Source of the DNA: Pseudonocardia abyssalis
GTDB lineage: Bacteria > Actinomycetota > Actinomycetes > Mycobacteriales > Pseudonocardiaceae
Assembly (NCBI RefSeq): GCF_019263705.2
Contig: NZ_JADQDK010000001.1
Location: 1,302,001-1,366,000, forward strand
DNA length: 64,000 nt
Direction: 5' to 3'
The notes beneath the pieces are model-generated. The model was not told where the DNA came from, did not search any database, and saw only the letters and a program-made list of their open reading frames with translations. This document shows positions 22,378 through 45,498 of the stretch, piece after piece; position 1 is the stretch's first letter, and each line of letters opens with the position of its first letter. The translations under genes were made by a program, and so were the position numbers.

Positions 22378-22379
22378 CC

Positions 22380-23872: not shown

Positions 23873-24011
23873 TACCGCCGGTCGGTCCCGTCCGTCCGGT
23901 TCTCGGCCAACGGCCATGCGGTCGTCCCGAAGCGTGCAGTCGAGGTTCACCCGACCGAGTGGAGCGTCGACGACAGTAGGGCGGGCCGGGGGTCGGCAGC
24001 GGAGGGACAGA

Positions 24012-26753: not shown

Positions 26754-26893
26754 ATAGTCGGAGAACGGGCGCTGTGACGGTCTCGCGCTGATTGCCGGGG
26801 GCTTTCGCGCCATAGCGCTGCGCGGTGCCGCATTGCGTATCCGTGGAATAGCGACAGGATCTAATCATCGGCCAGATGAGGGAGCTGAAGTAC
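26754..26893. promoter_or_regulatory. Likely promoter/leader region before the core synthase operon
   Basis: This 140-bp region is noticeably less GC-rich than its surroundings and precedes the FAD reductase that starts the run leading into the synthase genes. No exact -35/-10 pair could be assigned. A GGAGCTG ribosome binding site sits before ATG 26894. Confidence 0.35.
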
Positions 26894-28129
26894 ATGTATG
26901 ACGTCATTGTGGTGGGTGCCCGCTGTGCCGGTTCGCCGGTGGCGATGCTGCTGGCCCGACGGGGTCACCGCGTGCTGCTCGTGGACCGTTCGACGTTCCC
27001 GAGCGACACGCCCTCGACCCACTACATCCACCAGGCGGGCCTGGCCCGGCTGCAGGACTGGGGTCTGCTCGACCGGGTCGTCGGTACCGGCGTGCCCGCG
27101 ATCCGGCACCTCAACTTCACCTACACCGGCATCGAGATCGCCGGGTTCGCCGACCCGATCGAGGGCGTCGACGCGGTGTACTGCCCGCGGCGCACCGTGC
27201 TGGACTCCCTGCTGGTCGACGCGGCGCGCGAGGCCGGGGTCGACGTCATCGAGGACTTCACGATGGCCGACGTGGTCTTCGCCGAGGGCCGGGCCATCGG
27301 CATCCGCGGCCGCCAGCGCGGCGGGCCGGAGCTGGAGTTCCGCAGCGCGTTCGTGGTGGGCGCCGACGGCGCCGGCTCGACGGTGGCCGACAAGGTGGGC
27401 GCCGACTTCTACGTGCGCCGTCCCGCCGGCTGCTTCATCTACTACTCCTACTTCAGCGGCCTGTCGCACTGGGGCATGCACCACCGCACCGGTTTCGGCG
27501 AGCAGCAGATCGGCACCTGGCCGACCAACGGCGGGGTCAACCTGCTCGCCGTGATGCGCAAGCGGGACCGGTTCGCCGACTTCCGCGCCGACGTCGACGG
27601 CTCGTTCCAGGAGATCTTCGACCAGATCGACCCGGCGCTCGGCGAGGAGCTGCGCGACAGCGGCGTCCGCGAGGAGCCGTTCCGGCCGATGCGCTACCCG
27701 GACAACTTCTACCGCCGCTCGCACGGCCCGGGCTGGGCGCTGGTCGGCGACGCCGGCTACCACAAGGACCCGTTCACCGGCTGGGGCATCACCGACGCCT
27801 TCAAGTACGGCGAACTGCTCGCCGAGCGGCTGCACGAGGGCCTGTCCGGCGCGCGCCCCGTCGACGACGCGGTCGCCGAGTACGCGAAGGAGCGCGACGA
27901 GGCCAGCGCCGGCACCTTCGAGCTGACCTGCAGCATCTCCGAGCTGCAGCTCACGCCGTTCTACGACGCGGTGTTCAGCGCGGCCTCGCACAGCGAGGAG
28001 TACACGAAGAAGTTCTTCGGCCTGATCGCGGGCGGGATCCCGGGCGAGCAGTTCTTCGGGCGGGACAGCCTCGAGCGCCTCTACGACGAGGTGGACGTCC
28101 CGGCCGACCGGCGGGTGTTCGCCGGCTGA
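26894..28129 (+). CDS. FAD-dependent oxidoreductase, geranylgeranyl-reductase-like
   Basis: A 411-residue flavoprotein starting at ATG 26894 (MYDVIVVGARCAG), chosen for its GGAGCTG site over ATG 26876. The Rossmann motif is the relaxed VVGARCAGSPVAMLLARRG seen in geranylgeranyl-reductase-like and halogenase-like proteins; GADGAGSTVADKVG and ALVGDAGYHKDPFTGWGITDA are the second and third FAD motifs. Family members reduce isolated double bonds in lipids or act as monooxygenases. Location just before the synthase suggests double-bond reduction or oxygenation of its product. It differs clearly from the FAD enzyme at 16968. Confidence 0.83.
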   Translation: MYDVIVVGARCAGSPVAMLLARRGHRVLLVDRSTFPSDTPSTHYIHQAGLARLQDWGLLDRVVGTGVPAIRHLNFTYTGIEIAGFADPIEGVDAVYCPRRTVLDSLLVDAAREAGVDVIEDFTMADVVFAEGRAIGIRGRQRGGPELEFRSAFVVGADGAGSTVADKVGADFYVRRPAGCFIYYSYFSGLSHWGMHHRTGFGEQQIGTWPTNGGVNLLAVMRKRDRFADFRADVDGSFQEIFDQIDPALGEELRDSGVREEPFRPMRYPDNFYRRSHGPGWALVGDAGYHKDPFTGWGITDAFKYGELLAERLHEGLSGARPVDDAVAEYAKERDEASAGTFELTCSISELQLTPFYDAVFSAASHSEEYTKKFFGLIAGGIPGEQFFGRDSLERLYDEVDVPADRRVFAG

Positions 28130-28184: not shown

Positions 28185-28787
28185 ATGCCCCCCACCAGGC
28201 TCACAGTGCTCGGCGACAGCTTCGTGGAGGGGCGTGGCGACCCGGCCCCGGAGGGCGGCTACCGCGGCTGGGTGCCGCGGCTGGCCGACCTCCTCGGGCT
28301 GCCCGCGGGATCGGTGCGCAACCTCGGCGCCCACGGGGCGACCACCCAGGACGTGCTCGACCACCAGATCGGCCGGGCGCTGGTGGGTAAGCCACCGCTG
28401 ATCGGCGTCGTCGTCGGGGTCAACGACCTCGTCAGCGACTACGACCCCGCCCGGTTCCGCGCCAACCTGAACGAGATCTTCTCCGTGCTGTGCGGGATGG
28501 ACACCGTCGTGTTCACCGCCGACTACCCCGACATCCCCTCCAACCTCCCCGTCCCGGAGGGGTTCCGCCGGCTGATGCAGGGCCGGTTCGCCGAGGCCAA
28601 CGCGGCGATGCGCGCGGCCGCCGCGTCGACCGGGGCCCTGTGCCTGGACCTCGCGGGCGCCCCCGAGTGGCGGCCCGGGCCCGCGTGGTCCTCCGACGGC
28701 CTGCACCCGAGCCCCGAGGGGCACCAGCGGTTCGCCGCGTCCATGGCCGAGCTCGTCGCCCGTGACACGGGCCTCGTCGCCGCCTGA
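28185..28787 (+). CDS. SGNH/GDSL-type hydrolase
   Basis: A 200-residue SGNH hydrolase, ATG 28185 behind GGAAGGAC. Block I TVLGDSFVEGRG carries the nucleophile serine; block II NLGAHGATT, block III GVVVGVNDLV, and block V DGLHPSPEGH with the Asp/His pair complete the family set. No signal peptide, so cytoplasmic. In synthase loci, SGNH enzymes serve as thioesterases/esterases or acyltransferases; here it directly precedes the PfaA-type synthase by 43 bp and may release its product, since the synthase has no thioesterase domain. Confidence 0.87.
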   Translation: MPPTRLTVLGDSFVEGRGDPAPEGGYRGWVPRLADLLGLPAGSVRNLGAHGATTQDVLDHQIGRALVGKPPLIGVVVGVNDLVSDYDPARFRANLNEIFSVLCGMDTVVFTADYPDIPSNLPVPEGFRRLMQGRFAEANAAMRAAAASTGALCLDLAGAPEWRPGPAWSSDGLHPSPEGHQRFAASMAELVARDTGLVAA

Positions 28788-28830: not shown

Positions 28831-31800
28831 GTGAGCAACGAGCTGTCGGAACGCCGGCTGGCCCGCAACCTGATCGCCGTCGTGGGCATGTCGGGGCTGT
28901 TCCCCATGGCCCACGACCACCGCGAGTACTGGCAGAACATCGTGGACGGCGTGGACTGCACGTCCGAGGTCCCCGCGTCGCGCTGGAGCCTCGAGGACTA
29001 CCACGACGCCGACCCGTCGGCACCGGACAAGACGTACTCGAGGCGCGGGGCCTTCCTGCCCGACGTCGAGTTCGACCCCGTGGAGTTCGGGCTGCCCCCC
29101 AACCAGCTCGAGGTCACCAGCACGATGCAGACGCTGAGCCTGGGTGTGGCTCGGGACCTGTTGCGCGACGCCGGCGCCGACGGCGACTGGTACGACCCGA
29201 GCCGCACCGGCGTCGTGCTGGGCACGACCGGGCCGGTGCCGCTGATGCACCCGCTCGCCGCGCGCCTGTCCACGCCGGTGCTCAAGGAGGCCGTCCGCAG
29301 CTGCGGGCTGTCCGCGGCCGACGCCGACGCGATCGCGGCCAAGTACGTGCAGGCCTTCGCGCCGTGGGAGGAGAACTCGTTCCCCGGGCTGCTCGCGAAC
29401 GTGGTGGCCGGCCGGATCGCGAACCGGCTGGGGCTGGGCGGGATGAACGCCACGGTCGACGCCGCGTGTGCCGCCTCGCTCGCCGCCATCCGCACGGCGG
29501 TGGCCGAACTGGTCGACGGCCGGGCCGACACCATGATCACCGGCGGCGTCGACACCGAGAACTCGATCTTCATCTACCTGTGCTTCAGCAAGGTCGGCGC
29601 ACTGTCGCCCGGCGGGGTGATCCGCCCGTTCGACGAGGGCGCCGACGGCACCCTGCTCGGCGAGGGCATCGGCATGCTCGCGCTGCGCAGGCTCGCCGAC
29701 GCCGAGCGCGACGGGAACCGGATCTACGCCGTCATCCGCGGGATCGGATCGTCGAGCGACGGCCGGGCGAAGAGCATCTACGCGCCGCGCGCCGAGGGCC
29801 AGCGGCTGGCGCTGGACCGGGCCTACGCCGACGCCGAGTGCTCGCCCGCGTCGGTCGAGCTGTTCGAGGCGCACGCCACCGGCACCGCGGTCGGCGACCG
29901 GACCGAGCTCACCGCGCTGGGTGAGCTGCTGTCCGCCGCGTCGGACGAGCCGAGGTTCGCCGCTCTGGGCAGCGTGAAGTCCCAGATCGGGCACACCAAG
30001 GGCGCCGCGGGCACCGCCAGCCTGATCAAGCTGGCGCTGGGCCTGCACCACCGGATGCTGCCGCCGACGATCAACGTGGAGCGGGCGAACTCCGCGATCG
30101 GGCCGGACGCGCCGTTCTACGTCAACGGGACCACCCGGCCGTGGATCCTCGACCCGCACCGCCCGGTGCGCCGCGCCGCCGCGTCCGCGATGGGCTTCGG
30201 CGGCACCAACTTCCACGTGGTGCTCGAGGAGCACGTGCCGTCCCGCGACCGGATGCGGGTCCAGCACCGCACCGCCCGCGCGCACCTGTGGCACGCCCCC
30301 GACCCGGACACGCTGTTGGCGGCGCTTCGGGCGGGGGAGCCGTCGGTCGACGGTGTGGAGATTCCCGAGCAGCACGCCCGGATCGGGTTCGTCGCCGCGG
30401 ACGACGGTTCCGCTCTCCGGGAGCTCGCGATCGAGCAGCTCGCCGCGCAGCCCGACGCCGACGCGTTCTCGCACCCGCGGGGTGTCCACTACCGGCGTCG
30501 CGCGCAGCCCGGCCTGAAGGTGGGCGCGTTGTTCGCCGGGCAGGGCAGCCAGTACCTGGACATGGGGGCGCAGGCGGCGCTGAACAATCCGGTCGTCGCG
30601 GCCGCGCTCGATGAGGCGAACGCCTCCTTCGACGGGGCGGGCACCCGCCTCGCGCAGGTGATGTACCCGCCGCCGGTGTTCGACGCCGGGGTGCGCCAGG
30701 GCCAGGAGGCCGCGCTGCGCCGCACCGAGCACGCGCAGCCCGCGATCGGCGCGCTGGCCGTCGGCCAGTTCCGGTTCCTGCGCGAGCTCGGCCTGCGCTG
30801 CGACGCCCACCTGGGCCACAGCTTCGGCGAGCTGACCGCGCTCTGGGCCGCGCAGGCGCTGCCGGACAGCGACTTCTTCACCCTCGCGCGGGCCCGCGGG
30901 CTCGCGATGGCCCCGGAGGCCGACACCCCCGACGCGGGCACGATGGCGGCGATCACGGCGTCCCGCGACGAGGTCGAGGAGCTGCTGGCCGGGTTCCCCG
31001 ACGTGGTTCTGTGCAACCACAACGCGCCCGACCAGGTCGTCGTCGGCGGTGGCAGCGGTGCGGTCGCCGAGGTCGTGGAGGCCTGCGCCGCCCGCGGGTT
31101 CGACGCGCGTCTGCTGCCGGTGGCCGCGGCGTTCCACACGCCGTACGTCGCACACGCCGCCGAGGCCTTCGCGGCGGCCGTGGCCACCGTCCGGATCGGA
31201 GAACCGGCGGCTCCCGTGCACGCCAACTCGCCGGACGCCGGCTACGGCGCCGACCCCGACGCCAACGCCCGGACCCTGGTCCAGCAGCTCGCGCGCCCCG
31301 TCGAGTTCGTCGCCGGGTTGCACGCGATGCGCGACGCGGGAATCACGGTGTTCGTCGAGTTCGGGCCCAAGCAGGTGCTCACCTCGTTGGTCCGCCGCAC
31401 GCTCGGCGACGACGTCGAGGCGTTCGCCACCGACGGCGGACCGCTCGGGGACAGCGACGTCGCGCTGAAGGCGGCGGCCGTCCGGCTCGCCGTGCTCGGC
31501 GTCCCGATCACCGCGGTCAACCGGTACGACGCTCCACCGCCCGCGCCCGCTCGCACCGGCGGGATGGCGGTGACGCTGTCGGCCCCGGAGTACGTCCCGG
31601 AGCAGCGCCGGACCGCCTACCGCGACGCGCTCGCCGACGGCTACCGCGTGGCGGGACCGGCGCCCGAGACGGCGGGGCTCGCCGTGGCGGGGACGAACGG
31701 GGCGCAGGGCAACGGGGCGCAGGGCAACGGGGCGCAGGGCAACGGGGCGCAGGGCAACGGGGCGCAGGGCAACGGGGCGCACGGCGCCCCTGTGGTGGTC

Positions 31801-34800
31801 CACGGCTCGGAGGTCCTCGCGACGCGCGGTACGGGCCCGATCGCGTCCCGACCCGCAGTCCTGCCCACGGCAGCCGCGGCGAGCAGGCCCGCGGTCGACG
31901 TCACCGGGGCCGCCCTGCTCCGGCACGTCGACGTGCACGCGGACTACCTGGAGGGCCAGCTGCGGATCGCCGAGCAGCTCGCCGCCACCGTGCGGGACGG
32001 GGCAGGCGATCCGGCCGTCGCGGACATGGTGCAGGCGGTGGTCGAGCACAGTGCCGGGATCGGGCAGGCCCACATCCGGGCCAACGAGATCCTGGCGTCA
32101 CTCACCGGACTCGAACTCGGCAGCCCGCTGCCGACTCCGGCTCCGGCGGTGGCTCCGGCGCGGCAGGTGGCCGAACCGGCCGCCGACGTCGACGCTGAAC
32201 TGCGGGCACTGGTGGCCGCGCCGCCCGTCCCGGCCACCGCGCCCGTCCCGACCACCGCGCCGACCACCGCGCCGACCACCGCGCCCGTCCCGGCCACCGC
32301 GCTCGCTGCCGAGCCGGTCGCGGTCGCGCCTGCGCCTGCGGCCGCGCCGGATCTGTTGGGTGTGTTGCGGGGGGTGGTGGCGGAGAAGACGGGTTATCCG
32401 GTGGAGATGGTGGATCCGGGGATGGATCTGGAGGCGGATCTGGGGGTCGACTCGATCAAGCGGGTGCAGGTGCTGGGTGCGGTGCAGGAGCTGTTCCCGG
32501 AGCTGCCGGAGATCGGTCCGGAGCAGTTGTCGGAGCTGCGCACCCTCGACCAGATCGCGACGTTCCTCGGTGCGGCGGCCCCGCAGGCGGCTGCGGCCCC
32601 CGTCGCTCCCGTGGCTCCCGCCACTGCCGAGCCAGTCGCGCCTGCGGCTGCGCCGGATCTGTTGGGTGTGTTGCGGGGGGTGGTGGCGGAGAAGACGGGT
32701 TATCCGGTGGAGATGGTGGATCCGGGGATGGATCTGGAGGCGGATCTGGGGGTCGACTCGATCAAGCGGGTGCAGGTGCTGGGCGCGGTGCAGGAGCTGT
32801 TCCCGGAGCTGCCGGAGATCGGTCCGGAGCAGTTGTCGGAGCTGCGCACCCTCGACCAGATCGCGTCCTTCCTCGGAGGGGCCGGTGGTGTCGGCCCAAA
32901 AGCACCTGAGGCCGGGGCGACCGCGCCCCGGCACCGGGTCGGGCTGGTCCGCCTGCCCCGTATCGACCTGATCGAGGACCCCTACGCCGACGAGCCCGTC
33001 GCCCTGCTGGTCGACGGCGGGGGCCCTGACGGTGGGGGCCCGGACGGGGACGCCGTCGCGTCCGCGCTGGAGGCGAGCGGCTGGACCGTGCGACGGGCCC
33101 CCGGCCCGGACCTCAGCGGTCCCGCCGACCTCGTGCTCCATCTCCTCGACGGACCCGACGTGGTGGACGCGCTGGCCGGTGCCGTCGCGACCGCGGGTCC
33201 GGCGGTGGGCGCGCTGACCACGGCCGGCACCCGCGCGGCGTACGTGACGGTGACCCGCCTCGACGGTGAGCTGGGCCTGTCCGGGCGCTGCGACCCGGAA
33301 CGGGCGCTGCTCGGCGGCGTCGGCGGCCTGGTCAAGACCCTGGCCGCGGAAGACCCCGCGGTCTTCGCGCGGTCGGTCGACGTCGACCCCGCCCTGGCTC
33401 CTGACGAGTTCGCCGCGGCGCTGCTCGCGGAGCTGCACGACGCCGCGACCGACACCCTGGAGGTCGGGATCGGTGCCGGTGGGCAGCGGTGCACGGTGGT
33501 TCCCGGCCGTCACCGCCCGGCCACCGAGCGGTCCGTGGTCGACCCGTCGGCGCCGCCGCCGACGACCACGCTGGGTGCCGACGACCTGCTCGTGGTCACC
33601 GGTGGCGCGCGCGGTGTCACGGCGCTGTGCGTGCGCGCGCTGGCCGAGCACAGCGCGGCCGCGTTCCTGCTGCTGGGCCGCACCGCGCTCGCCGACGAGC
33701 CTGCCTGGGCCGCGGGAGTGCCGGACGGCGAGCTCAAGCCCGCCGTCATCGACGGCCTGCGCGCCGACGGCGGGCGGCCCACACCCCGCGACGTCGACCG
33801 GGCGCTGGGGGAGCTGCGGGCCGGGCGCGAGATCCGGTCCACCCTGGCGGCGCTGGGCTCGCGGGCCCGCTACCTGGCGGTCGACGTCACCGACGCCGAC
33901 GCCGTGCGGTCGGCCCTGGCCGCGGACCGGGACCGGGTCACCGGCGTCGTCCACGGCGCCGGGGTGCTGGCCGACGCGCTGCTGCCGGACAAGACCCCCG
34001 AGCAGGTGCGGCGCGTGTTCGCCCCGAAGCTGGGCGGGCTCGCGGCCGTCCTCGGGGCGCTGGACGGCGCGCCGCTGCGGCACCTGGTGCTGTTCACCTC
34101 GGTGGCCGGGCTGCTCGGCAACTCCGGGCAGGCCGACTACGCCGTGGCCAACGAGGCGTTGTGCCGGTTCGCCGCGAGCCACCGGGCCCGCCACCCCGAG
34201 CAGCACGTCACCGCGATCGACTGGGGGGCGTGGGACGGCGGCATGGTCACCGACGCGCTCCGCGAGCTGTTCAGCGCCCGCGGGATCCCGCTGCTCGACC
34301 CCTCGGCCGGCGCCAGGGCGTTCGTCGAGCAGTTCACGGCCGAGCGGGTGGCCGAGATCTGCGTGCTGATCGGGGCGGACACCTCGCTGGCCGCCCCCCG
34401 GCGGGTGCCGCCCCCGGCGTTCACGGCCGCCCGTGACCTCGCGGGCCTGGTCGACGACCCGGTGATCCAGGCCCACCGGATCGGGGCCCACCCGGTGCTG
34501 CCCGCGACGTTCGGCCTCGGCTGGCTGGTCGCCGTCGTCGAGCGGGCCCATCCCGGGCTGACGGTCGTCGAGGTCGGCGACTTCCAGGTGCACAAGGGCA
34601 TCGTGTTCGACGGACCCGTCCCGGAGCGGCTGCGCGTGCAGGTCGACGCCGCGTCCGTCGACGGGACGGGGGTTCGGGTCCGGGCCGCGGTGCGCTCCGG
34701 CGACCCGCACGGGCTCGCGCCGTCGCACTACGCCGCCACGCTGCGGCTCGCGCCGGCACCCGCCGAGCCGCCCCGCTCGACGGCCCATGAGGTGGGGGAA

Positions 34801-35283
34801 GGGCCGGAGGACGCCCTGGAGATCTACAGATCGGCCGTGCAGTTCCATGGGCCCGCGTTGCAGGGGATGCGGCGCATCCTGGCCGCGGACCCATCCGACG
34901 ACGGGCGGCTGGTGGTGCAGTGCCGCCTCGCGGACTCGGCGGTCGCCGACGGCGCGTTCCACGGCCGGCTCTACAGCCCGGTACTCGCCGACGTCCTGCT
35001 GCAGGGCCCGCCGGTGCTGGGACACCGCCTGCTCGGCGCCCCGTGCCTGCCGCTGGGCATCGACCGCGTCGACCTGTACGCGCCGCTGCCCGACGACGAG
35101 CCGTTCGTGCTCGTGCTCGACGGCGTCGAGCGGCGCCCGACCGGCGTCACCGTCACGGCGACCGCGTGCACCCCGGACGGGGCCGTGCTGCAGCGGTTCA
35201 CCGGGGTCACCGTCGTCTCCACCCCGGACCTGGCGGACCGCTTCAACGAGGCGGTCCGGCACCGAAGCGAAGGAGCACGATGA
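28831..35283 (+). CDS. pfaA: PUFA-synthase-like iterative polyketide synthase (KS-AT-ACP-ACP-KR-DH)
   Basis: A 2150-residue megasynthase from GTG 28831 (GAGAGGAC upstream). KS (residues about 11-475) has the PfaA-type active site DAACAAS with Cys213, HATGT His348 and GHTKGAAG His388. AT (about 563-880) has GHSFGE Ser664. A flexible region with a six-fold NGAQG repeat (956-985) and Pro/Ala/Thr linkers leads to two near-identical ACPs (DSIKR serines 1208 and 1310). KR has VTGGARGVTA near 1591 and Tyr1770 (GQADYAVANEA). A terminal DH-like domain has His1887 in GAHPVLPATF. This matches PfaA of PUFA synthases, but with two ACPs rather than the usual five or more. There is no PPTase domain, which argues against an enediyne synthase. 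Its stop overlaps the next ATG. Confidence 0.9.
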   Translation: MSNELSERRLARNLIAVVGMSGLFPMAHDHREYWQNIVDGVDCTSEVPASRWSLEDYHDADPSAPDKTYSRRGAFLPDVEFDPVEFGLPPNQLEVTSTMQTLSLGVARDLLRDAGADGDWYDPSRTGVVLGTTGPVPLMHPLAARLSTPVLKEAVRSCGLSAADADAIAAKYVQAFAPWEENSFPGLLANVVAGRIANRLGLGGMNATVDAACAASLAAIRTAVAELVDGRADTMITGGVDTENSIFIYLCFSKVGALSPGGVIRPFDEGADGTLLGEGIGMLALRRLADAERDGNRIYAVIRGIGSSSDGRAKSIYAPRAEGQRLALDRAYADAECSPASVELFEAHATGTAVGDRTELTALGELLSAASDEPRFAALGSVKSQIGHTKGAAGTASLIKLALGLHHRMLPPTINVERANSAIGPDAPFYVNGTTRPWILDPHRPVRRAAASAMGFGGTNFHVVLEEHVPSRDRMRVQHRTARAHLWHAPDPDTLLAALRAGEPSVDGVEIPEQHARIGFVAADDGSALRELAIEQLAAQPDADAFSHPRGVHYRRRAQPGLKVGALFAGQGSQYLDMGAQAALNNPVVAAALDEANASFDGAGTRLAQVMYPPPVFDAGVRQGQEAALRRTEHAQPAIGALAVGQFRFLRELGLRCDAHLGHSFGELTALWAAQALPDSDFFTLARARGLAMAPEADTPDAGTMAAITASRDEVEELLAGFPDVVLCNHNAPDQVVVGGGSGAVAEVVEACAARGFDARLLPVAAAFHTPYVAHAAEAFAAAVATVRIGEPAAPVHANSPDAGYGADPDANARTLVQQLARPVEFVAGLHAMRDAGITVFVEFGPKQVLTSLVRRTLGDDVEAFATDGGPLGDSDVALKAAAVRLAVLGVPITAVNRYDAPPPAPARTGGMAVTLSAPEYVPEQRRTAYRDALADGYRVAGPAPETAGLAVAGTNGAQGNGAQGNGAQGNGAQGNGAQGNGAHGAPVVVHGSEVLATRGTGPIASRPAVLPTAAAASRPAVDVTGAALLRHVDVHADYLEGQLRIAEQLAATVRDGAGDPAVADMVQAVVEHSAGIGQAHIRANEILASLTGLELGSPLPTPAPAVAPARQVAEPAADVDAELRALVAAPPVPATAPVPTTAPTTAPTTAPVPATALAAEPVAVAPAPAAAPDLLGVLRGVVAEKTGYPVEMVDPGMDLEADLGVDSIKRVQVLGAVQELFPELPEIGPEQLSELRTLDQIATFLGAAAPQAAAAPVAPVAPATAEPVAPAAAPDLLGVLRGVVAEKTGYPVEMVDPGMDLEADLGVDSIKRVQVLGAVQELFPELPEIGPEQLSELRTLDQIASFLGGAGGVGPKAPEAGATAPRHRVGLVRLPRIDLIEDPYADEPVALLVDGGGPDGGGPDGDAVASALEASGWTVRRAPGPDLSGPADLVLHLLDGPDVVDALAGAVATAGPAVGALTTAGTRAAYVTVTRLDGELGLSGRCDPERALLGGVGGLVKTLAAEDPAVFARSVDVDPALAPDEFAAALLAELHDAATDTLEVGIGAGGQRCTVVPGRHRPATERSVVDPSAPPPTTTLGADDLLVVTGGARGVTALCVRALAEHSAAAFLLLGRTALADEPAWAAGVPDGELKPAVIDGLRADGGRPTPRDVDRALGELRAGREIRSTLAALGSRARYLAVDVTDADAVRSALAADRDRVTGVVHGAGVLADALLPDKTPEQVRRVFAPKLGGLAAVLGALDGAPLRHLVLFTSVAGLLGNSGQADYAVANEALCRFAASHRARHPEQHVTAIDWGAWDGGMVTDALRELFSARGIPLLDPSAGARAFVEQFTAERVAEICVLIGADTSLAAPRRVPPPAFTAARDLAGLVDDPVIQAHRIGAHPVLPATFGLGWLVAVVERAHPGLTVVEVGDFQVHKGIVFDGPVPERLRVQVDAASVDGTGVRVRAAVRSGDPHGLAPSHYAATLRLAPAPAEPPRSTAHEVGEGPEDALEIYRSAVQFHGPALQGMRRILAADPSDDGRLVVQCRLADSAVADGAFHGRLYSPVLADVLLQGPPVLGHRLLGAPCLPLGIDRVDLYAPLPDDEPFVLVLDGVERRPTGVTVTATACTPDGAVLQRFTGVTVVSTPDLADRFNEAVRHRSEGAR
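31696..31785 (+). repeat. In-frame 15-nt tandem repeat (6 copies) encoding NGAQG
   Basis: Six copies of AACGGGGCGCAGGGC (the last ending CACGGC, giving NGAHG) in the AT-ACP linker of the synthase. The encoded Gly/Asn/Gln-rich stretch should be disordered, and copy number is probably variable between strains. Confidence 0.9.
32344..32865 (+). repeat. Tandem ACP domains, 216 nt with one mismatch, 306-nt period
   Basis: Bases 32344-32559 and 32650-32865 are identical except for T32478 versus C32784. Each encodes one ACP core with its DSIKR phosphopantetheine serine. Codon use in both copies (GAT, TTG, GGT, TAT, GTG) departs from the C-ending codons of the flanking synthase, suggesting recent duplication or gene conversion of an atypical segment. 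Confidence 0.92.
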
Positions 35284-37244
35284 CCAGCGTCCTGGAGTTC
35301 GTCGGCGAGCCGTTCGATGCGGCCGCCTGGACCGCCGCACCCCCACCGGAGGTCGCCGCACCCCCCGCCGCACCCCCCGCCGCCTCGCCGCTCCCGGCGC
35401 CGCAGCGGGACGGGCCGGGGCCGACCGCGCTCACCACGCTGTGGGAATCGGTGGCACAGGCGCACCGCAGCGCGCTGCGGGCGCAGGAGGCCCTGCAACG
35501 GCGCATGGTGACGGCCCGGCCGGGGGTGGGCGCGGCGGAGCCGCCCGCACCGCCCGCGGTCCGGACCGCGCCGGAGGGCGCGTTCAAGCCACTGGCCCGC
35601 ACCACGGTGACCGCACTCGACACCGCCGCACTGGCCCGGCTCGCGGCCGGTGACGTCGCCGGGGTGTTCGGCTCCGCCTACGACCAGGACGGCGCCAACC
35701 CCGCCCTGCGGTTCGCCGGGGGAGACCGGCCGGTGCTGAACGCGGTGGGGCGGATCGAGCTGCGCGGCGGGGCGGCAGGCGCGGGGCGGGTGCTGGCCGC
35801 GGCGGAAGGCGACGCGGTCGCCGCGGCCGTGCAGGCCACGCAGGTGTTCGCGCTGTTCACGGGCCTGCACCTGTGCCTGGCCGACGCGGAGTTCGTCGTC
35901 ACCGCGCCGCCGTCCGACGGTGCGCGGATCGCCGGAACGGTCGATCTGGAGGTGACGGCCGTCGATCTCGTACCCCGGCCCGGGCTGACGGCCCGGGCCA
36001 CCGTCGACGGTGTCGGGGCGTTCGAGGTGTCCGTGGAGGTCCGGGAACGGCCGGGCACGCCGGCCGGCCCGGGCGCCGGCGGCCGGGGTCCGTGGCTCGG
36101 CCGGCTCAGCGCAGCGGGTGAGCGGACGCTGCTCAGCGAGCTGCACATGGCCCACCTCGCCCGCGGCGACCAGGGCCTGGCGATGGGCCCGGAGTTCGCG
36201 ACCAACACCGGTCGCAAGGCGACCCGGCTACCGACCGGCGGCCTGCTGCTGGTCGACCGGGTCGTCCACGTCGACGGCGAGCGGGGCCGCCTCGACAGCG
36301 CCCGCTACGAGACGGAGTACGACTCGCCGGCCGACTCCTGGTACTACGCCGACACGGCGAACGCGTCGATGCCGCACTGCGTCTACATGGAGACCTCCCT
36401 GCAGGCCGCCCTGCTGATCGGCTACTACCTGGGCCCGACACTGGCCGCGCCGGACGCCACGGTCAGCCTGCGCAACCTCGGCGGCACCGCCACGGTGCTG
36501 CGCGAGGTCGACCTGCGTGACGCGACGATCCGGCAGAGCTCCGAGCTGCTGTCCACCACGCCGCTGCCCGGATCGATGCTGCAGGAGTTCCGGTACTCCC
36601 TGGCCGTGGACGGCGAGCCGTTCTACCGGGGCGAGACGATGTTCGGCTACTTCGGCGACGCCGCGCTGGCCAACCAGACCGGCCTCGACAGCGGCCGGAC
36701 GCTGCCGACGTGGCTCGACGCGCAGGAGGTGCGTCCGCGGACCCGCAGGCTCGACCTCACCGCGCGCCGCGCCGACCCCGCCGCGTCGCGCTGCTCCCGC
36801 GGGAAGCTGGCCCTGCTCGACGAGATCGAGGTGGTCGACGGCGGCGGGCGGCACGGCGCGGGGTACCTGCACGCCGTGCGCGCGATCGACCCCGCGGACT
36901 GGTTCTTCGCCCGCCACTTCCACCTCGACCCGGTGATCCCCGGCTCGCTCGGGGTGGAGTCGGTGATCCAGGCGATGCAGGAGTGGCTGCTCGACTCCGG
37001 GCACGCCGACCACCTGCGGGACCCGCAGTTCGTCGTCCCGGTAGGCGAGCCGTTCGCGTGGAAGTACCGCGGCCAGTTCCTGCCCGTCGACGCGACCTCC
37101 ACGCTGGAGGTGCACCTGCGTGACGTCGTCGCCACGCCCGGCCGGGTCCGGGTGAGCGCCGACGCCAGCATGTGGAAGCCCGGCCTGCGAATCTACGAGC
37201 TCACCGGTGTCGCGGTCGAGCTGCGGGAAGCGGGTGCGCCGTGA
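35280..37244 (+). CDS. PfaC-like protein reduced to tandem FabA-type dehydratase domains
   Basis: A 654-residue protein overlapping the synthase by four bases. After a Pro/Ala-rich N-terminus, VFGSAYDQ and the [14 protein letters not shown] segment mark the start of a PfaC-type DH region. DH1 carries [16 protein letters not shown] (His366), DH2 carries [18 protein letters not shown] (His546/His548), the FabA hotdog active-site helix. In PUFA synthases these FabA-like domains dehydrate and isomerise intermediates to set methylene-interrupted cis double bonds. Canonical PfaC also has KS and chain-length-factor domains in front; both are absent here, so only the single KS of the upstream protein can elongate. 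No thioesterase domain at the end. Confidence 0.87.
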
Positions 37245-38845
37245 CCGAGCTCGCGAGGTCACCGTTCGGCGCGGCGCCCGAGCTCGCCGAGGCGGTCGCC
37301 CGCGACGCCGCCGCCGTCCGCGCCGCCCTGCTGTGCCTGGACCGGCCGCTGTTCGTGGTGCGCGACGGCGCCGGGATCGGCGTGTGCACCGACGACCGGG
37401 CGGCGCGGGCCGCCGGCCAGGTCCTCGCCGCGCTCGCCCCGCTGCGGCCCGACGCGCTCGGGGACGACGGGTTCCGCGCGGCGCACGGCGTCCGCGAGGC
37501 CTACATGACCGGGGCCATGGCCAACGGGATCGCCTCGGCCCGCCTGGTGGTGGCGCTGGCCCGCTCGGGGAGGCTGGGGTCCTTCGGCGCCGCGGGCCTG
37601 CTGCCCGATCGCATCGACGCCGAGCTGGCCACGATCCGCCGCGACGCGCCCGGGCTGCCGTTCGCGTGCAACCTCATCCACAGCCCCAGCGAGCCCGCGC
37701 TGGAACGGGCCACCGTCGAGGCGTGCCTGCGCCACGAGGTGCGCTGCGTCGAGGCGTCGGCGTTCCTCGACCTGACCCCGCAGGTCGTCCGCTATCGGCT
37801 GGCCGGGCTCGCCCGCGCCGGCGACGGCGCGGTGCAGGCCCGCAACCGGATCATCGCGAAGGTGTCGCGGGTCGAGGTCGCCGAGCTGTTCCTGCGGCCC
37901 GCGCCGGAGCGGATCGTCCGCGCACTGCTGGAGGCGGGGGCCGTCACCGCGGAGCAGGCCGAGCTGGCCCGCGCGGTCCCGATGGCCGACGACATCACCG
38001 CAGAGGCCGACTCCGGCGGCCACACCGACCGGCGCTCGCTGGTGGTGCTGGTGCCCGAGCTGCTCGCGCTGCGCGACCGGATCGGGCGCGAGTGGATGCC
38101 CGCCCGCCGGGTCCGGATCGGGGCGGCCGGTGGCATCGGCACGCCGGCCGCGGTGGCGGCGGCGTTCGCGCTGGGCGCGGCGTACGTCGTCACCGGGTCG
38201 ATCAACCAGGCCTCCGTGGAGGCCGACCAGTCCGCGGCCACCAAGGACCTGCTAGCGGGCGCCGGCCCGGCCGACGTCGACATGGCGCCCTCGGCCGACA
38301 TGTTCGAGATGGGCGTCGAGGTGCAGGTCCTGCGCCGCGGCACACTGTTCGCGGGCCGGGCGAAGAAGCTGTACGAGACCTACCGGGCCCACGACGGCAT
38401 CGACGCGATCCCGGTGGCCGAGCGGGCCGAGCTCGAGCAACGGGTGTTCCGCCGCCCGCTCGACGAGGTGTGGCAGGACTGCGTGGCGTTCTTCACCGCC
38501 CGCGACCCCGCCCAGATCGCCCGCGCGCAGGACAGCCCCAAGCGGCGGATGGCGCTGATCTTCCGCTGGTACCTGGGCCTGTCATCGGGATGGAGCATCG
38601 CGGGCGCACCCGACCGCGTCGCCGACTACCAGGTCTGGTGCGGGCCCGCGATGGGCGCCTTCAACTCCTGGGTGAGCGGCACCCACCTTGCCCCGCCCGC
38701 GAACCGGTGCGCCGCGGAGCTGGCCGGGCACCTGATGCGCGGAGCCGCGTTCACCGCGCGCGCCGGTCAGTTGCGCCTGGCCGGCGTCCGGCTGCCCACC
38801 GAGTGCACGACCTACCTGCCCGACCCCTATCTGGAGGACTCGTGA
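37241..38845 (+). CDS. pfaD: PfaD-type enoyl reductase (FMN-dependent, NPD-like)
   Basis: A 534-residue TIM-barrel flavoprotein of the PfaD/nitropropane-dioxygenase-like group. Diagnostic segments: [79 protein letters not shown] and [16 protein letters not shown]. PfaD acts in trans as the enoyl reductase of PUFA synthases, saturating selected intermediates with FMN and NADPH. GTG 37241 overlaps the previous stop, and its own stop overlaps the carboxyltransferase start, so stoichiometric coupled translation is expected. Confidence 0.92.
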
Positions 38846-40551
38846 CGACCACGGAATGGCTGGTCTGCGACGGCTGCGCCGCGATGATCTACGGCAGGCG
38901 GTTCGCCCGAGCCGGGCGGATCTGCCCGGAGTGCGGCTGGCACGCCCCGCTGACCGCGCCGCAGCGGCTGGCGAGCCTGCTCGACCCCGGTTCGGTGCGG
39001 ACGCTCGAACTGGTCGTCGCCGACGCCGACCTGCCCGAGTTCACCGACCTGCGGCCCTACTCCGACCGGCTCCGCGACGCCCGCGCCCGCACCGGGCTGG
39101 CCGAGGCCGTGGTCTGTGCCCGCGGCCGGATCGACGACAACCCGGTCGTCGTCGCCGCGATGGACTTCCGGTTCCTGGGCGGCAGCCTCGGGACGGCCGT
39201 CGGCGAGGCGGTGACCCGGGCCGCGGAGATCGCGCTGCGGGAGCGCACCCCGCTGCTGATCGTCACGGCATCGGGTGGGGCCCGCATGCAGGAGGGAATC
39301 CTGTCGCTGATGCAGATGGCCAAGACGAGCCAGGCGCTCGGCCAGCTCGACGAGGCCGGCGTCCTCACGGTCTCGCTGATCACCGATCCCACCTACGGCG
39401 GGGTGGCGGCGTCGTTCGCCACCTCGACCGACGTGATCATCGCCGAACCCCGGGCCCGGCTCGGGTTCGCCGGGCGCCGGGTCATCGAGCAGACGATCCG
39501 CGAGACCCTGCCGGCCGGGTTCCAGACCGCGGAGTTCCTGCTCGAACACGGTGTGATCGACATGATCCGGTCGCGGGCGGAGCTGCGGGCGACGCTGGCC
39601 CGGCTGCTCTCGGTGGCGAGCAGGCGCCCCGTCTCCGACGACCGGGCCCCTGCCCCGCAACCCGCGGGCCCCGCCCTGATCACCGACGCCGACCGGCTGC
39701 CCGAGCGGGACCCCTGGCTGTGCGTGCGGGCCGCGCGCCGGCTCGGCAGGCCCACGACGCTGGACCACGTCGCGATGCTGGTCGACGGGTTCGACGAGCT
39801 GCACGGCGACCGCAGCTCGGCTGACTGCCCGGCGCTGGTCGCCGGCCTCGGCCGGTTCGAGGGGGTCCCGGTGGTGGTGATCGGGACCCAGAAGGGACAC
39901 GACGGCGCCGAGCTGGCCGCCCGCAACTACGGCATGCCGAGCCCGGCCGGCTACCGCAAGGCGGCCCGGGTGATGCGGCTGGCGGCGAAGCTCGGCCTGC
40001 CGGTGATCACCCTGATCGACACCGCGGGCGCCCACCCCGGCGTCGACGCCGAGCGGCACGGGCAGGCCGTCGCCATCGCGCAGAACCTCGTGCTGATGGC
40101 CGGGCTGCCGGTCCCGGTCGTGGCCGTGGTGACAGGGGAGGGCGGCAGTGGCGGCGCGCTCGCGCTGACCGTCGCCGACCGCATCCTGATGTGCGAGAAC
40201 GCGGTGTACTCGGTGATCAGTGCCGAGGGCTGTGCCGCGATCCTGTGGAAGGACCCGGCCGCGGCGCCGCTCGCCGCGACCGCCCTGCGTGTCGACGCCC
40301 GGTCGCTGCTGCGGCTCGGGATCGTCGACGGCGTGGTGCCCGAGCCGGGCGAGGGCGCCGAGACCGATCCGGTGGCGGCGTCCGAGGCGCTGCGCGCCGC
40401 GCTGGCGCAGACCCTCGGTGAGCTGCTGCCGCTGGACCAGATGACGCTCGTGACGGCCCGCCGGGCCCGGTTCCGGCGCTTCGGCTCGGACACGGCGGTG
40501 CTCGTGGACCCGGCCGCCGCCGGGCGCCCGGACCGGGTGGTGTCGCGATGA
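38842..40551 (+). CDS. accDA: Fused acetyl-CoA carboxylase carboxyltransferase beta-alpha (AccD-AccA)
   Basis: A 569-residue fusion. The beta half begins with a C4 zinc finger (Cys9, 12, 28, 31 in CDGC...CPEC) and continues with [20 protein letters not shown] and [12 protein letters not shown]; the alpha half has [53 protein letters not shown] and [18 protein letters not shown]. It transfers CO2 from carboxybiotin to acetyl-CoA to make malonyl-CoA. Most actinobacteria rely on AccA3/AccD-type acyl-CoA carboxylases, so a plastid/E. coli-type AccDA inside this operon is noteworthy. It pairs with AccB (next gene) and AccC (8694). Confidence 0.93.
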
Positions 40552-41015
40552 CCCCGCCCGAGGACGTCGAGCGGGTGGCGGTGGTGCTGCGCGAGCAGGT
40601 GCTGATCCTGCTCGCGCAGGCGGCCCGCACGCCCTCGGCCGTGCGGATGACCGCGGGCGGGGTGACCGTCGAGGTCGACTGGGCCGCCCCGTCCCCGGCT
40701 GCCCCGTCCCCGGCCGCCCCGTCCCCGGCTGCCCCGTCCCCGGGGCCCGCGGCACCCGCCGTCGAGCCGGAACCCGACACCGTCGCCCTGTGCGCGGAGA
40801 CCGTGGGGGTCTTCTACCGGGCCCCGGAGCCCGGCGCCACGCCCTTCGTCGCGGTCGGGGACGAGGTCCGGGTCGGGCAGCAGGTGGGGATCGTCGAGGC
40901 GATGAAGCTGATGATCCCCGTGGAGGCGAGGCGGGCCGGGCGGGTGGCGGACTTCCTCGTCGCCGACGGGATGGCGGTCGAGCACGGCCAGCCACTGCTC
41001 CTGCTGTACCCCTGA
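40548..41015 (+). CDS. accB: Biotin carboxyl carrier protein
   Basis: A 155-residue AccB with the biotinyl motif [12 protein letters not shown] (Lys120; EAMKLM in place of EAMKMM), preceded by the E. coli-type thumb region ([22 protein letters not shown]). The N-terminal helix is followed by a proline/alanine linker built from a four-fold AAPSP repeat. It carries CO2 between AccC and AccDA. Last gene of the synthase operon; its TGA falls in a 17-nt tandem repeat followed by a strong hairpin. Confidence 0.94.
40683..40742 (+). repeat. In-frame 15-nt tandem repeat (4 copies) encoding AAPSP in AccB linker
   Basis: Four copies of GCCGCCCCGTCCCCG-type units encode AAPSP repeats in the mobile linker between the N-terminus and the biotinyl domain. 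Linker length may vary by unit number. Confidence 0.85.
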
Positions 41016-41056: not shown

Positions 41057-41089
41057 GTGCGGTCGGGGCTACTTGAGCCCCGACCGCAC
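41057..41089. terminator. Strong hairpin between convergent accB and ABC permease
   Basis: GTGCGGTCGGGGCT, loop ACTTG, then the exact reverse complement: a perfect 14-bp GC-rich stem with a 5-base loop. It covers the TAG of the permease (41069-41071) and lies 42 bp past the accB stop. No T-run, but GC-rich hairpins without T-runs commonly terminate transcription in actinomycetes; it can serve both strands. Confidence 0.7.
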
Positions 41090-41938
41090 GAACGCGTGCA
41101 CGATGTGGCGCTGCAGCACCAGGTAGAGCGCGAAGATGGGCAGGCACGCCAGTCCGGCCAGAGCCATCAGCGGGCCCCAGTCGTTGCCCTCGGTGCCCAT
41201 GAAGCTGCGCAGACCCAGCTGGATCACCGCGTTGCTGCGCTGCAGCACCATCGCGGGCCAGAAGTACTCGTTCCACGCGTTGATGAACAGCAGGATCGAC
41301 AGCGCGGCCAGCGCGGGGCGCACATTGGGCACCACCACCGTCCACAGCGTCGTCCAGGACGAGCGGCCGTCCATCGCCGAGGCCTCCAGCAGCTCCTTGG
41401 GGAAGCTGTCGAGGTGCTGGCGCAGCAACAGCACGCCCAGCGCGGAACACAGGTTGGGCACGACGACGCCCGCGAGGGTGTTGAGCAGCCCGAGCTGCAG
41501 CAGCAGCGAGTAGTTGGGCAGCATCGTCACCTGGAACGGCACCAGCCAGGTGCCGATGAATGCGAGGTAGAGCAGCCGTTGGAACGGGAAGCGCCACGCG
41601 GCGAAGGCGTATGCGGCCAGCAGCGCGGTCAGCAGCTGGCCCAGCGCCGTCAGCAGGGCCACCGCCGTCGTGTTGACCATCAGCCCGACCACGTCGACCT
41701 TCGCCGCAGCGTCGACGACGTTGAGCAGCGACATCGGCCACGGCAGGGGGTTCTGCGAGTAGACGTCCTCCGGCCGGCGCAGCGCCGTGGCGTAGAGCCA
41801 GTAGATCGGGAAGACGCACAGCACGCCGAGCACCGCCAGCACGGCGTGCCCTCGCACGACGCGCCAGCGGGACGGGACAGGGCGATCCGGATCGGGGATG
41901 TGAACGGCGGGTGCCGGGGTCAGGGTGCCGGACGACAT
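41069..41938 (-). CDS. ABC sugar transporter permease (MalG-like)
   Basis: A 289-residue integral membrane protein with about six transmembrane segments, starting at ATG 41938 behind GAGGAGG. The ABC coupling motif EAS/EAA-loop is visible as ELLEASAMDGRSSWTTLWTVVVPN. It forms the translocation channel with the permease at 41968. Last gene of an operon ATPase-binding protein-permease-permease read leftwards. Carbohydrate import is the family role; the solute is unknown and a link to the adjacent biosynthetic operon is not shown. Confidence 0.92.
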   Translation of the reverse strand: MSSGTLTPAPAVHIPDPDRPVPSRWRVVRGHAVLAVLGVLCVFPIYWLYATALRRPEDVYSQNPLPWPMSLLNVVDAAAKVDVVGLMVNTTAVALLTALGQLLTALLAAYAFAAWRFPFQRLLYLAFIGTWLVPFQVTMLPNYSLLLQLGLLNTLAGVVVPNLCSALGVLLLRQHLDSFPKELLEASAMDGRSSWTTLWTVVVPNVRPALAALSILLFINAWNEYFWPAMVLQRSNAVIQLGLRSFMGTEGNDWGPLMALAGLACLPIFALYLVLQRHIVHAFVRSGLK

Positions 41939-41967
41939 GGGAGCCTCCTCGGCTGTCGTGGAACGAC

Positions 41968-42948
41968 TCAGTTGTCGTGGAAGGTCAGACGGTCCGACAG
42001 CCAGACCAGCGCGGTCGCGACGGCGCCGAACCCCACCAGCAGGACCATCCCCGCGGCGGCGCCCAGCCCGGCGTCGAAGCTGCGGAAGCTGTAGTCCCAC
42101 AGCAGGTAGTAGATGTTGGTGGTCGCGTCGGCCGGGCCGCCCTGCGTCATCGTGTCGATCAGTGGGAACGTCCACTGCGCGGAGAGCAGGACCGTCATCA
42201 GTGCCAGGAACACCAGCGTCGGAGACAGCAGCGGCAGCGTGATCCGCCGGGTGATCTGCGAACGGGTGGCACCGTCGACCGCGGCCGCGTCGGCGTAGTC
42301 GCCGTTGATCCCGGCCAGCCCGGCGGAGACGATCAGCACGGCGAAGCCGAGCACGTGCCAGCCCGTGATCACGATGATGGCCAGCTGCGCGGTGGAACTG
42401 TCGTTGAGCCAGTTCGTCGACGTGCCCAGCACCCGGTTCACGACACCCGATCCGGGGTCGAGCAACCACTGCCAGACCGCGGCGCTGGCGACCGGCGCCA
42501 CCAGCATCGGGGCGAACACCATGGCCTGGTAGACCACCGCCGCCCGGCCGCGGACCTCCCGCGTCAGCAGCCCCACCAGCACCGGCACGACGATCGAGAA
42601 CGGCAGCAGGGCGAGGATCAGCACGACGGTCCGCCCGACCGAGTCGCCGAGGTCGGGCAGCTCGAACAGGCGCTCGTAGTTGGCCAGGCCCACCGGGACG
42701 GCGGGCGAGGTGGGCAGCAGGTTCCACGAGTAGAACGAGAGCTGGGCGGTCTGCACCAGCGGGCGGTAGGTCCAGACCACGAGCAGCACCAGCGCGGGTG
42801 CCACGTAGAGGTAGGGGACCACCGCGTGCAGGAGCCGTCGAACCCGGGCCGGTCGTGCGGTGTGCACGACCGGCCCGGGCCCGGCCGGCCCGGTGGAGGA
42901 CCCGTGGCCGACGGGGGCGGTCACGGGCGGGGCCAGCTCGACGAACAT
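41968..42948 (-). CDS. ABC sugar transporter permease (MalF-like)
   Basis: A 326-residue permease with a cytoplasmic Pro/Gly-rich N-terminus, about six transmembrane helices and the coupling loop DYADAAAVDGATRSQITRRITLPLLSP. ATG 42948 lies 2 bp from the stop of the binding-protein gene, so translation is coupled. Partners: MalG-like permease (41069), binding protein (42951), ATPase (44371). Confidence 0.92.
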   Translation of the reverse strand: MFVELAPPVTAPVGHGSSTGPAGPGPVVHTARPARVRRLLHAVVPYLYVAPALVLLVVWTYRPLVQTAQLSFYSWNLLPTSPAVPVGLANYERLFELPDLGDSVGRTVVLILALLPFSIVVPVLVGLLTREVRGRAAVVYQAMVFAPMLVAPVASAAVWQWLLDPGSGVVNRVLGTSTNWLNDSSTAQLAIIVITGWHVLGFAVLIVSAGLAGINGDYADAAAVDGATRSQITRRITLPLLSPTLVFLALMTVLLSAQWTFPLIDTMTQGGPADATTNIYYLLWDYSFRSFDAGLGAAAGMVLLVGFGAVATALVWLSDRLTFHDN

Positions 42949-42950
42949 GC

Positions 42951-44333
42951 TCAGCCGTCGCCGGGGAACAGCCCGACGGCCCGCTCCTGCGCGTCGGCGA
43001 GCGTCGTCGCCGGGTCGGCGCCCTGGTACACCGACGCCTCGACGGCCTCCATCATGCCGTCGCGGATCTGCAGGTAGGAGTTGCCGGGGAAGGAGATCCA
43101 CGGCTCCATCCGGCCCAGCTGTTCGAGGTTGGGCCGGACCAGCGGGTTCTCGGCGATCCAGCCCTGCAGCCCGTCCGGGTCGTCGACCAGGCCGGTGCGC
43201 AGGGGCAGGTAGCCGATGTTGGTGGAGATCATCTCGTAGGCGTTCTCGCTGGTGAGGAACTGCATCAGCTCCCAGCCGGCCCGCTGCTTCGCGGGGTCGT
43301 CGGCGAGCAGGAACAGCGACGCACCCGAGTTGGTCGGGATGGTCGGCTGCCCGTCGAAGCTGGGCATCGGCGCGGACCGCAGGTCCCAGCCGCCCGACGC
43401 CGCGCCCTTGGTGAACGTCGCCTGGATGGCGCTGGTCTCCAGGATCATGCCCATCTCGCCCCGGGCGAACGCCTCGTAGCCCTGCTGCTGGGTGAACACC
43501 GGGGTGACGCCGGCGTCGACGAACCCACGGGCCATCTCCACGACCTCGACGACCTCCGGGTCGGCGAAGGTCGGTGCGGTGCGGTCCTCGGAGATCACCC
43601 GACCGCCGTTGGAACGGACCAGCGCCTGCAGGCACCAGTCCTTGGCCGTCTTGGTGAGGCAGTCGAGGTAGACCCCGCCCTTGCCGGTCGCGGCGGTGAT
43701 GGCCTGCGCGGCAGTGCCGACCTCGGCCCACGTGGTCGGGGGCGCGGCCGGGTCGAGGCCGGCCGCCTCGAACAGGGAGGCGTTGTAGTAGAGGACCGGG
43801 GTGGAGAAGACGAACGGCACGCCGTAGGTCTGGCCCTCCCAGTCGCCGAGCACACGGGCCGTCGGGGCGTAGGGGTGCTCGGCGCCGTCGAAGTTCGCCT
43901 GCACGGCCTCGGTGCCGACGATCGTGTCCAGCGGCTTGGCGCCGAGCTGGTTGACGGTGAAGTCGAGGTCGCTGAAGCCGAGCTGCGCGACGTCGGGCGG
44001 GTTGCCCGCGGCGATCTGCGTCTGCAGGCTCGATATGGTGTCGGTGGCCGGGTTCGGGCTGTTGCCCTGCGGCCGCTGCGGGGTCACCGTGATGTTCGGG
44101 TGCTCGGCCTGGAACTGGTCGATCAGCGCGGTGAAGGTGTCGGTCCAGGCCCCGGCCTGGCCGAAGTTGTAGCTCTCGAAGATGATCGACACCTGCTGGT
44201 CGGGGGTCAGTTCGGGGACGACGGCGGTCGGTTCGGCTTGCGGGGCGGTCGCGCTGCCGCCGACCCCGCACGCCGTCGTGGCGAGGGTCAGGGCCAGCGC
44301 GACCGCGAGGCCGAGGCGATGACGGATCTTCAT
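42951..44333 (-). CDS. Extracellular solute-binding lipoprotein (family 1, sugar type)
   Basis: A 460-residue binding protein. The N-terminus (MKIRHRLGLAVALALTLATTAC) is a lipoprotein signal with the modified cysteine near residue 22, so it is anchored outside the membrane. Typical family 1 features follow: ITVTPQRPQGNSP, AGNPPDVAQLGF, YGVPFVFSTPVLYYNASLFEAAGLD and an EAFARGEMGMILETSA segment. It captures the solute for the MalFG-like permeases. Oligosaccharide or sugar-alcohol ligands are usual; the ligand here is unknown. Confidence 0.92.
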   Translation of the reverse strand: MKIRHRLGLAVALALTLATTACGVGGSATAPQAEPTAVVPELTPDQQVSIIFESYNFGQAGAWTDTFTALIDQFQAEHPNITVTPQRPQGNSPNPATDTISSLQTQIAAGNPPDVAQLGFSDLDFTVNQLGAKPLDTIVGTEAVQANFDGAEHPYAPTARVLGDWEGQTYGVPFVFSTPVLYYNASLFEAAGLDPAAPPTTWAEVGTAAQAITAATGKGGVYLDCLTKTAKDWCLQALVRSNGGRVISEDRTAPTFADPEVVEVVEMARGFVDAGVTPVFTQQQGYEAFARGEMGMILETSAIQATFTKGAASGGWDLRSAPMPSFDGQPTIPTNSGASLFLLADDPAKQRAGWELMQFLTSENAYEMISTNIGYLPLRTGLVDDPDGLQGWIAENPLVRPNLEQLGRMEPWISFPGNSYLQIRDGMMEAVEASVYQGADPATTLADAQERAVGLFPGDG

Positions 44334-44370
44334 GGCGGGAGGTGCTCCTCGAGGTGGGGGACTGCTGGAC

Positions 44371-45498
<1,128 letters not shown>

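Follow-up and report, generated by a model that had tools for sequence, protein, structure and literature searches.

The 64,000-nucleotide stretch of Pseudonocardia abyssalis DNA analysed here (the window; contig NZ_JADQDK010000001.1, positions 1,302,001 to 1,366,000) contains a five-gene operon related to the Pfa polyunsaturated fatty acid (PUFA) synthases. We consider it fairly probable that this operon encodes a pared-down Pfa-type secondary-lipid synthase, in which a single ketosynthase (KS) and a single isomerase would make a shorter, sparsely unsaturated acyl chain released by GDSL hydrolysis. The operon consists of the following genes (AT, acyltransferase; ACP, acyl carrier protein; KR, ketoreductase; DH, dehydratase; PKS, polyketide synthase; CLF, chain-length factor).

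28831 to 35283, + strand: PfaA homologue of 2150 residues, KS-AT-ACP-ACP-KR-DH (Pfam, TIGR02813), with KS at residues 15-417, AT at 567-862, two near-identical ACPs, KR at 1588-1802 and a PKS-type DH at about 1875-2135 (His1882, Asp2054)
35280 to 37244, + strand: PfaC-derived dehydratase protein of 654 residues, without KS and without CLF (Pfam, alignments)
37241 to 38845, + strand: PfaD enoyl reductase (TIGR02814)
38842 to 40551, + strand: AccD-AccA fusion, carboxyltransferase (Pfam, family models)
40548 to 41015, + strand: AccB biotin carboxyl carrier protein with an EAMKLM site (Pfam, sequence)

All neighbouring pairs from PfaA to AccB overlap by four bases (ATGA or GTGA, at 35280-35283, 37241-37244, 38842-38845 and 40548-40551), and the five genes, their coordinates and their overlaps stand as an earlier note, made from the sequence alone, had described them. 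The PfaA homologue scored 1551 bits against TIGR02813 (cut-off 1010.1). Pfam assigned to it a single KS and a single AT, two PP-binding stretches, a KR and a PS-DH domain, the PKS_DH_N part scoring under cut-off (21.7 versus 27). PfaD scored 616.6 bits against TIGR02814 (cut-off 449.25). These models agree with the PfaA domain order and the PfaD read earlier. The fused AccD-AccA and AccB named in the same note were also recognised, with several models slightly under cut-off. The AccD half passed TIGR00515 (330.8 versus 317.45), and the AccA half passed NF041504 (308.4 versus 300) and narrowly missed TIGR00513 (315.8 versus 319.3), while AccB fell under the TIGR00531 cut-off (102.5 versus 115.2). 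Four zinc-finger-like cysteines lie near the N terminus of AccD-AccA, and EAMKLM in AccB is presumably the biotin motif.

The dehydratase protein corresponds to the C-terminal region of PfaC-type proteins, with 42% identity to Streptomyces globosus over residues 98-653 and 47% identity to the PfaC-type DH region of Streptomyces albogriseolus over residues 192-648. According to the accessible part of PMC4882568, the order in this part of canonical PfaC is pseudo-DH1, DH1, pseudo-DH2, DH2. The window protein was divided as follows.

Residues about 98-280: degenerate DH1 core, active-site loop deleted
Residues about 285-470: pseudo-DH2
Residues 508-641: live FabA-type DH2 (His546, Glu560)

Pfam found a single FabA domain in this protein, at residues 508-641. 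In the alignment, the DH1 loop of S. globosus, Persicobacter and Azospirillum carries a His and an acidic residue, and the window protein has a short stretch without either. The motifs were followed through 83 sequences, namely the window, the 80 related loci described below, a same-genus genome (G015) and Streptantibioticus cattleyicolor. His546 and Glu560 of DH2 were invariant (83/83), and a complete DH1 active-site motif occurred in none of the 75 sequences that could be assessed, 8 of the 83 being not judgeable for DH1. A partial HFDGD string lies near the lost DH1 loop in 4 of the 75, lacking the P-G-S...E part, and was treated as chance. His546 and Glu560 line up with a His and an Asp in FabA structures, to which we ascribe catalytic roles. 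The earlier note had read two FabA-type dehydratases here, but two live ones are ruled out by Pfam and these alignments: the active-site loop of DH1 is deleted, and DH2 alone is intact.

The KS was placed in trees, the final one comprising 47 domains from 26 of the 55 named KS loci, four same-genus genomes, the window and comparators. Relative to the first tree, the final one dropped six modular KS rows and gained six (three same-genus KSs and three S. albogriseolus domains), and the grouping of the window KS with PfaA KSs was stable in both. Both trees gave a warning of long branches meeting, and their deep order is unsure. The window KS fell in a clade of 31 single-KS actinobacterial rows (100/100), nested in a 36-row PfaA-KS group (96/98). 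PfaC KSs, CLFs, an enediyne PKS and the FabF/KasA-type KS all lay outside this group, and an enediyne-type KS is ruled out by the placement. This outcome of the tree check suggested in the earlier note puts the window KS with PfaA KSs and apart from PfaC KSs, CLFs and the enediyne KS, the heterocyst side being represented by a loose Gloeothece PKS stand-in, with no verified HglE.

The PfaA KSs of S. globosus and S. albogriseolus fall just outside the 31-row clade, and the clusters of both retain KS-CLF and both DH active sites. Because of this, the reduced synthase is probably a derived form, in which KS-CLF and DH1 were lost. The S. cattleyicolor pSCAT locus (L114, 7531-16984) resembles the window in having one KS and no DH1 loop, but its PfaA is apparently split in two and its KS lies outside the clade.

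The remaining active-site motifs of PfaA are conserved among relatives. The KS Cys-His-His and the AT GHS were found in all of the relatives' PfaA frames (55/55 each), and the KR Tyr motif was present in 52/53. In the PKS-DH, with the window counted in, the His was kept in 53/54 frames and the Asp likewise in 53/54. The number of ACP motifs per PfaA ranged from 1 to 5 in 53 full-length frames, with two the commonest (26/53).

The genome of P. abyssalis contains 15 ketoacyl-synthase places: PfaA, six KSs spread over three modular PKS proteins, a FabF/KasA-type KS standing alone, and seven weak partial matches that were not inspected. The modular PKS locus, at about 734000-759000 of the genome, holds the six KSs together with one adenylation and one formyltransferase domain. 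AT places number four, namely PfaA, two modular ones, and a 336-residue frame near the stand-alone KS, which was tentatively taken for FabD. The earlier note had listed PfaB, a second KS and a chain-length factor as missing. No PfaB, second PfaC-type KS or CLF was found in the cluster or in the genome scan, the seven weak partial KS matches aside. A KS-CLF query from S. globosus was also run against 21 family genomes (that of P. abyssalis and 20 others), and none of the best matches, those listed, spans both halves, the sole positive control being the query's own record. A KS-CLF gene elsewhere would have spoken against the earlier proposal of an iterative synthase that is a reduced Pfa type and has a single KS; in the data searched, none appeared in trans among the matches listed. 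Nor did the KS tree, in which a verified heterocyst-glycolipid KS was not included, put the window KS inside a family of known product. This result and the KS tree support that proposal.

To place the operon among bacteria, one genome per species (84,980 species) was scanned with two peptide patterns, and 126 relatives were confirmed. Of these, the 80 best named loci were taken further, so that the counts lean towards close kin. Neighbouring genes were detected by tblastn with the window genes, for which diverged copies may escape, and denominators are the loci reaching far enough. All 55 loci that show any KS have exactly one. PfaD was found in 71/77 loci, AccDA in 43/74, AccB in 41/72 and AccC in 41/68. 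Nocardia loci make up a large share of the family, and Frankia and Rhodococcus loci are also members. The layout is not a singular one but that of a conserved actinobacterial family, partly published.

The conserved operon extends beyond the five genes of the earlier note, to three genes upstream of PfaA.

25014 to 26753, + strand: FadD-like acyl-activating ligase (family models)
26876 to 28129, + strand: FAD flavoprotein of halogenase/monooxygenase/reductase type, putative tailoring enzyme (Pfam)
28185 to 28787, + strand: GDSL (SGNH) hydrolase, with no obvious signal peptide by eye (Pfam, position)

The GDSL hydrolase lies immediately upstream of PfaA in 55 of 56 loci. Its sequence contains GDS, GxND and DxxH blocks, which we take to be the motifs of GDSL hydrolases. 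In the metagenomic protein P0142, PfaA carries a GDSL hydrolase fused to its N terminus, and this fusion links hydrolase and synthase. The flavoprotein, whose top PDB matches are the flavin halogenases 3e1t and 8zop, was found in 52/56 loci, and FadD in at least 46/56, some loci ending inside the gene. A UgpE-like permease, encoded downstream of the operon and convergent to it, was found in 39/64 loci; in the window it belongs to a UgpA/UgpE/UgpB-like ABC transporter of glycerol-3-phosphate/sugar type (41069-44543, - strand).

A candidate for a third part of the acetyl-CoA carboxylase (ACC) was found elsewhere in the window.

8694 to 10070, - strand: stand-alone biotin carboxylase AccC, proposed third ACC part (family models, comparison)
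7462 to 8697, - strand: cytochrome P450, with a 4-base overlap with AccC (counterparts behind AccC in the operons of G015 and G054)

This AccC passes PRK08591 and fails TIGR00514. It is 83% identical to the AccC located right behind AccB in the same-genus genomes G015 and G054, and 44-56% identical to the biotin carboxylases of its own genome that were compared. The operons of G015 and G054 have the order AccB-AccC-P450, their P450s being 77-81% identical to that of the window, whereas their remaining operon proteins show only 46-72% identity to the window's. Among relatives, 42 loci have AccB; AccC follows it in 41 of them at a distance of 6-45 bases, counted between match ends, and the remaining locus ends too early. 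The detached AccC therefore probably completes the ACC. A dedicated malonyl-CoA supply, which the earlier note had described as built into the operon, is supported, and the ACC is fuller than was noted, with AccC (8694-10070) lying outside the operon.

The two parts of this system may differ in origin. The dehydratase protein was detected at E 1e-50 or better in 7 of 60 same-genus genomes, the own genome included. Four other same-genus KSs form a separate clade (100/100), and the window KS groups with two from Amycolatopsis and one from Actinokineospora (88/91, drawn open). This grouping outside the same-genus clade suggests that the operon arrived horizontally. Because the AccC-P450 pair (7462-10070) resembles the Pfa operons of the same genus much more closely than the rest of the window's Pfa system does, it is likely to be a relic of a resident Pfa operon beside the foreign one, in which case the resident AccC would serve the incoming ACC.

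From the gene content, catalytic motifs, conserved synteny, DH1-loop deletion and the lack of any detected KS-CLF, we infer the following reactions, chain length, release step and product. Malonyl-CoA would be supplied by the ACC composed of AccD-AccA, AccB and the detached AccC. The AT of PfaA would load malonyl groups on both ACPs, and all condensations would fall to the one KS of PfaA. The KR would reduce, and the PKS-type DH and PfaD would saturate. In selected rounds, DH2 would dehydrate and probably isomerise, to give cis double bonds that are isolated. In the absence of KS-CLF, PfaB and an active DH1, the acyl chain would probably be of medium length up to C18-C20, and less unsaturated than eicosapentaenoic acid (EPA) or docosahexaenoic acid (DHA). 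The acid would be freed by the GDSL hydrolase in place of PfaB, re-activated by FadD, and oxidised or halogenated by the flavoprotein.

The functions assigned to the missing parts come from published work, as far as the available portions of these papers go. KS_A extends C2-C10 and C16/C18 chains, and KS-CLF those of C10 and C20 (PMC9702510). PfaB is a terminal acyltransferase (PMC12895367). FabA-type DHs dehydrate and isomerise, and a protist synthase expressed in E. coli no longer forms PUFA once its DH1 is mutated or deleted (PMC9702510; see also PMC9667614). The loss of KS-CLF, PfaB and DH1 would therefore limit the chain to about C20 or less, with fewer double bonds, and call for another release route. 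Release would most obviously fall to the GDSL hydrolase, which may also contribute to chain length; the earlier note had attributed length to one KS alone. The FadD and the halogenase-like flavoprotein suggest that the product is activated, and oxidised or halogenated. More broadly, and with rather less than even confidence, we propose an actinobacterial lineage with one KS and one isomerising DH, in which the PfaA KS and a dedicated GDSL thioesterase replacing PfaB set chain length with no CLF; this could be a minimal PUFA-type synthase occurring in nature, whose product would go into an oxidised or halogenated lipid.

Several observations weigh against a pared-down synthase of this kind. The strict AxFHT pattern of the AT, presumably a sign of malonyl specificity, occurs in just 28 of 55 PfaA frames. 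PfaD was not found in 6 of 77 loci and AccDA in 31 of 74, so that neither is essential family-wide. The window is the exception in the position of AccC, 30 kb from AccB. The KS-CLF search had a self-match as its sole positive control. The functions of the GDSL hydrolase, FadD and flavoprotein rest on family and position, with FadD and the flavoprotein far under curated cut-offs. The specificity of KS_A may have shifted, and canonical chain-length rules may not transfer. Finally, the larger role in the protist synthase belongs to DH1 in the portions seen of PMC9702510 and PMC9667614, yet DH1 is the one lost here, which leaves the capacity of DH2 alone uncertain.

The PfaD-less members (L054, L066, L069, L078, L088 and L090, in none of which PfaD was found) are possibly a branch leaving double bonds unreduced.

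Among other explanations, the acyl chain could be the starter or tail of a PKS/nonribosomal peptide synthetase (NRPS) product of lipopeptide type, instead of a free lipid. In the same-genus genome G015 (L128, 5645-17864), the P450 is followed by a KS-AT-ACP protein and two NRPS proteins with C-A-PCP (condensation, adenylation and peptidyl carrier protein) domains, hybrid PUFA-PKS-NRPS pathways exist according to the part available of PMC13291983, and P. abyssalis itself has an adenylation domain in its modular PKS locus (about 734-759 kb). We regard this explanation as unlikely, because, at the score thresholds applied, G015 is the only one of 90 scanned sequences with C or A domains and the window has none, although flanks are about 10 kb or less, and G054, G059 and G068 end just past AccC/P450. 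The modular PKS of P. abyssalis is also about 570 kb distant from the operon.

That the operon makes conventional long-chain PUFAs of EPA/DHA type is more doubtful still. PfaA and PfaD exceed their family cut-offs, and the Nocardia genome paper predicts PUFAs for a homologous cluster (PMC4035055, in the portion available). However, neither KS-CLF nor PfaB was found, only one FabA-type DH is live, and loss of DH1 abolishes PUFA formation in the protist synthase tested, as given in the accessible text of PMC9702510.

A split canonical system, with KS-CLF acting in trans, appears very improbable: a FabF/KasA-type KS and modular KSs are present in the genome, but no match listed in the own genome or the 20 relatives' genomes spans KS and CLF, in a search controlled by the self-match. 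A decayed, non-functional PfaABCD remnant is just as improbable. Despite the inactive DH1 and the loss of several domains, the KS, AT, KR, PKS-DH and DH2 motifs are kept in nearly all relatives examined, the single-KS layout holds throughout the KS-showing loci, and the frames are open with 4-base overlaps.

Comparison of the pared-down synthase with the canonical PfaA-PfaB-PfaC-PfaD systems of Shewanella, Photobacterium and Moritella shows the same PfaA order (KS-AT-tandem ACP-KR-DH), a PfaD, and FabA-type DHs of PfaC origin. In contrast to them, the window has two ACPs, lacks PfaB and KS-CLF, has a DH1 inactivated by deletion, and contains GDSL and ACC genes instead. The PfaC KS-CLF, two active FabA-type DHs and PfaB that define canonical Types A and B are thus missing from the window. 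The plasmid clusters of S. albogriseolus (L130) and S. globosus (L113) differ in holding KS, CLF, DH1 and DH2 on one PfaC-type protein.

Among published clusters, Nocardia cluster #11 has a 'pfaA' (KS/AT/ACP/ACP/KR) that shares the two ACPs. The available portion of PMC4035055 remarks on this two-ACP PfaA and predicts PUFA, and contains no discussion of the missing KS-CLF, dead DH1, GDSL hydrolase or ACC. In the part consulted of PMC3098273, Shulse and Allen describe secondary-lipid types uncharacterised in product, among them Type M (Frankia, Actinosynnema, S. avermitilis) and Type Q (R. erythropolis PR4), and for another one, Type R, they mention a single ACC gene. The present family includes loci of Frankia and Rhodococcus and probably corresponds to Type M or Q, the listed type strains not being among the best 80 loci. 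Related Nocardia clusters, and probably those of Frankia and Rhodococcus, have been published without a product. No mention of a product for the family, of the dead DH1 or of the GDSL link was found in the portions available of the open-licence PubMed Central literature, where PUFA synthase and GDSL came up together in one paper, a review on myxobacteria.

How PUFA-type synthases choose chain length and double bonds is unsettled, and KS-CLF, PfaB and DH1 have each been assigned a role. A natural system without these three, whose other active-site motifs persist in many genera, offers a compact machine on which this question can be tested. It would point to an uncharacterised lipid of Nocardia, Frankia, Rhodococcus and relatives, and argues against annotating such clusters as omega-3-type PUFA synthases.

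Other genes in this part of the window were compared with the family. A possible regulator of the operon has relatives near a few related operons.

23766 to 24950, + strand: LysR-type regulator

The region from 7 to 41 kb was considered as a single conserved cluster, but this found no support, the cyclopropane-synthase-like and desaturase-like genes travelling with the family at weak identity at most. These genes are clustered at 13168-16501 (+ strand), where a rubrerythrin/ferritin-like protein (under cut-off), a cyclopropane-synthase-like methyltransferase and a fatty-acid-desaturase-family protein are encoded, and this group is not family-conserved. An acyl-CoA dehydrogenase and an alpha/beta hydrolase are encoded at 19931-23276 (+ strand), and 8 of the 80 loci have relatives of both close to the operon.

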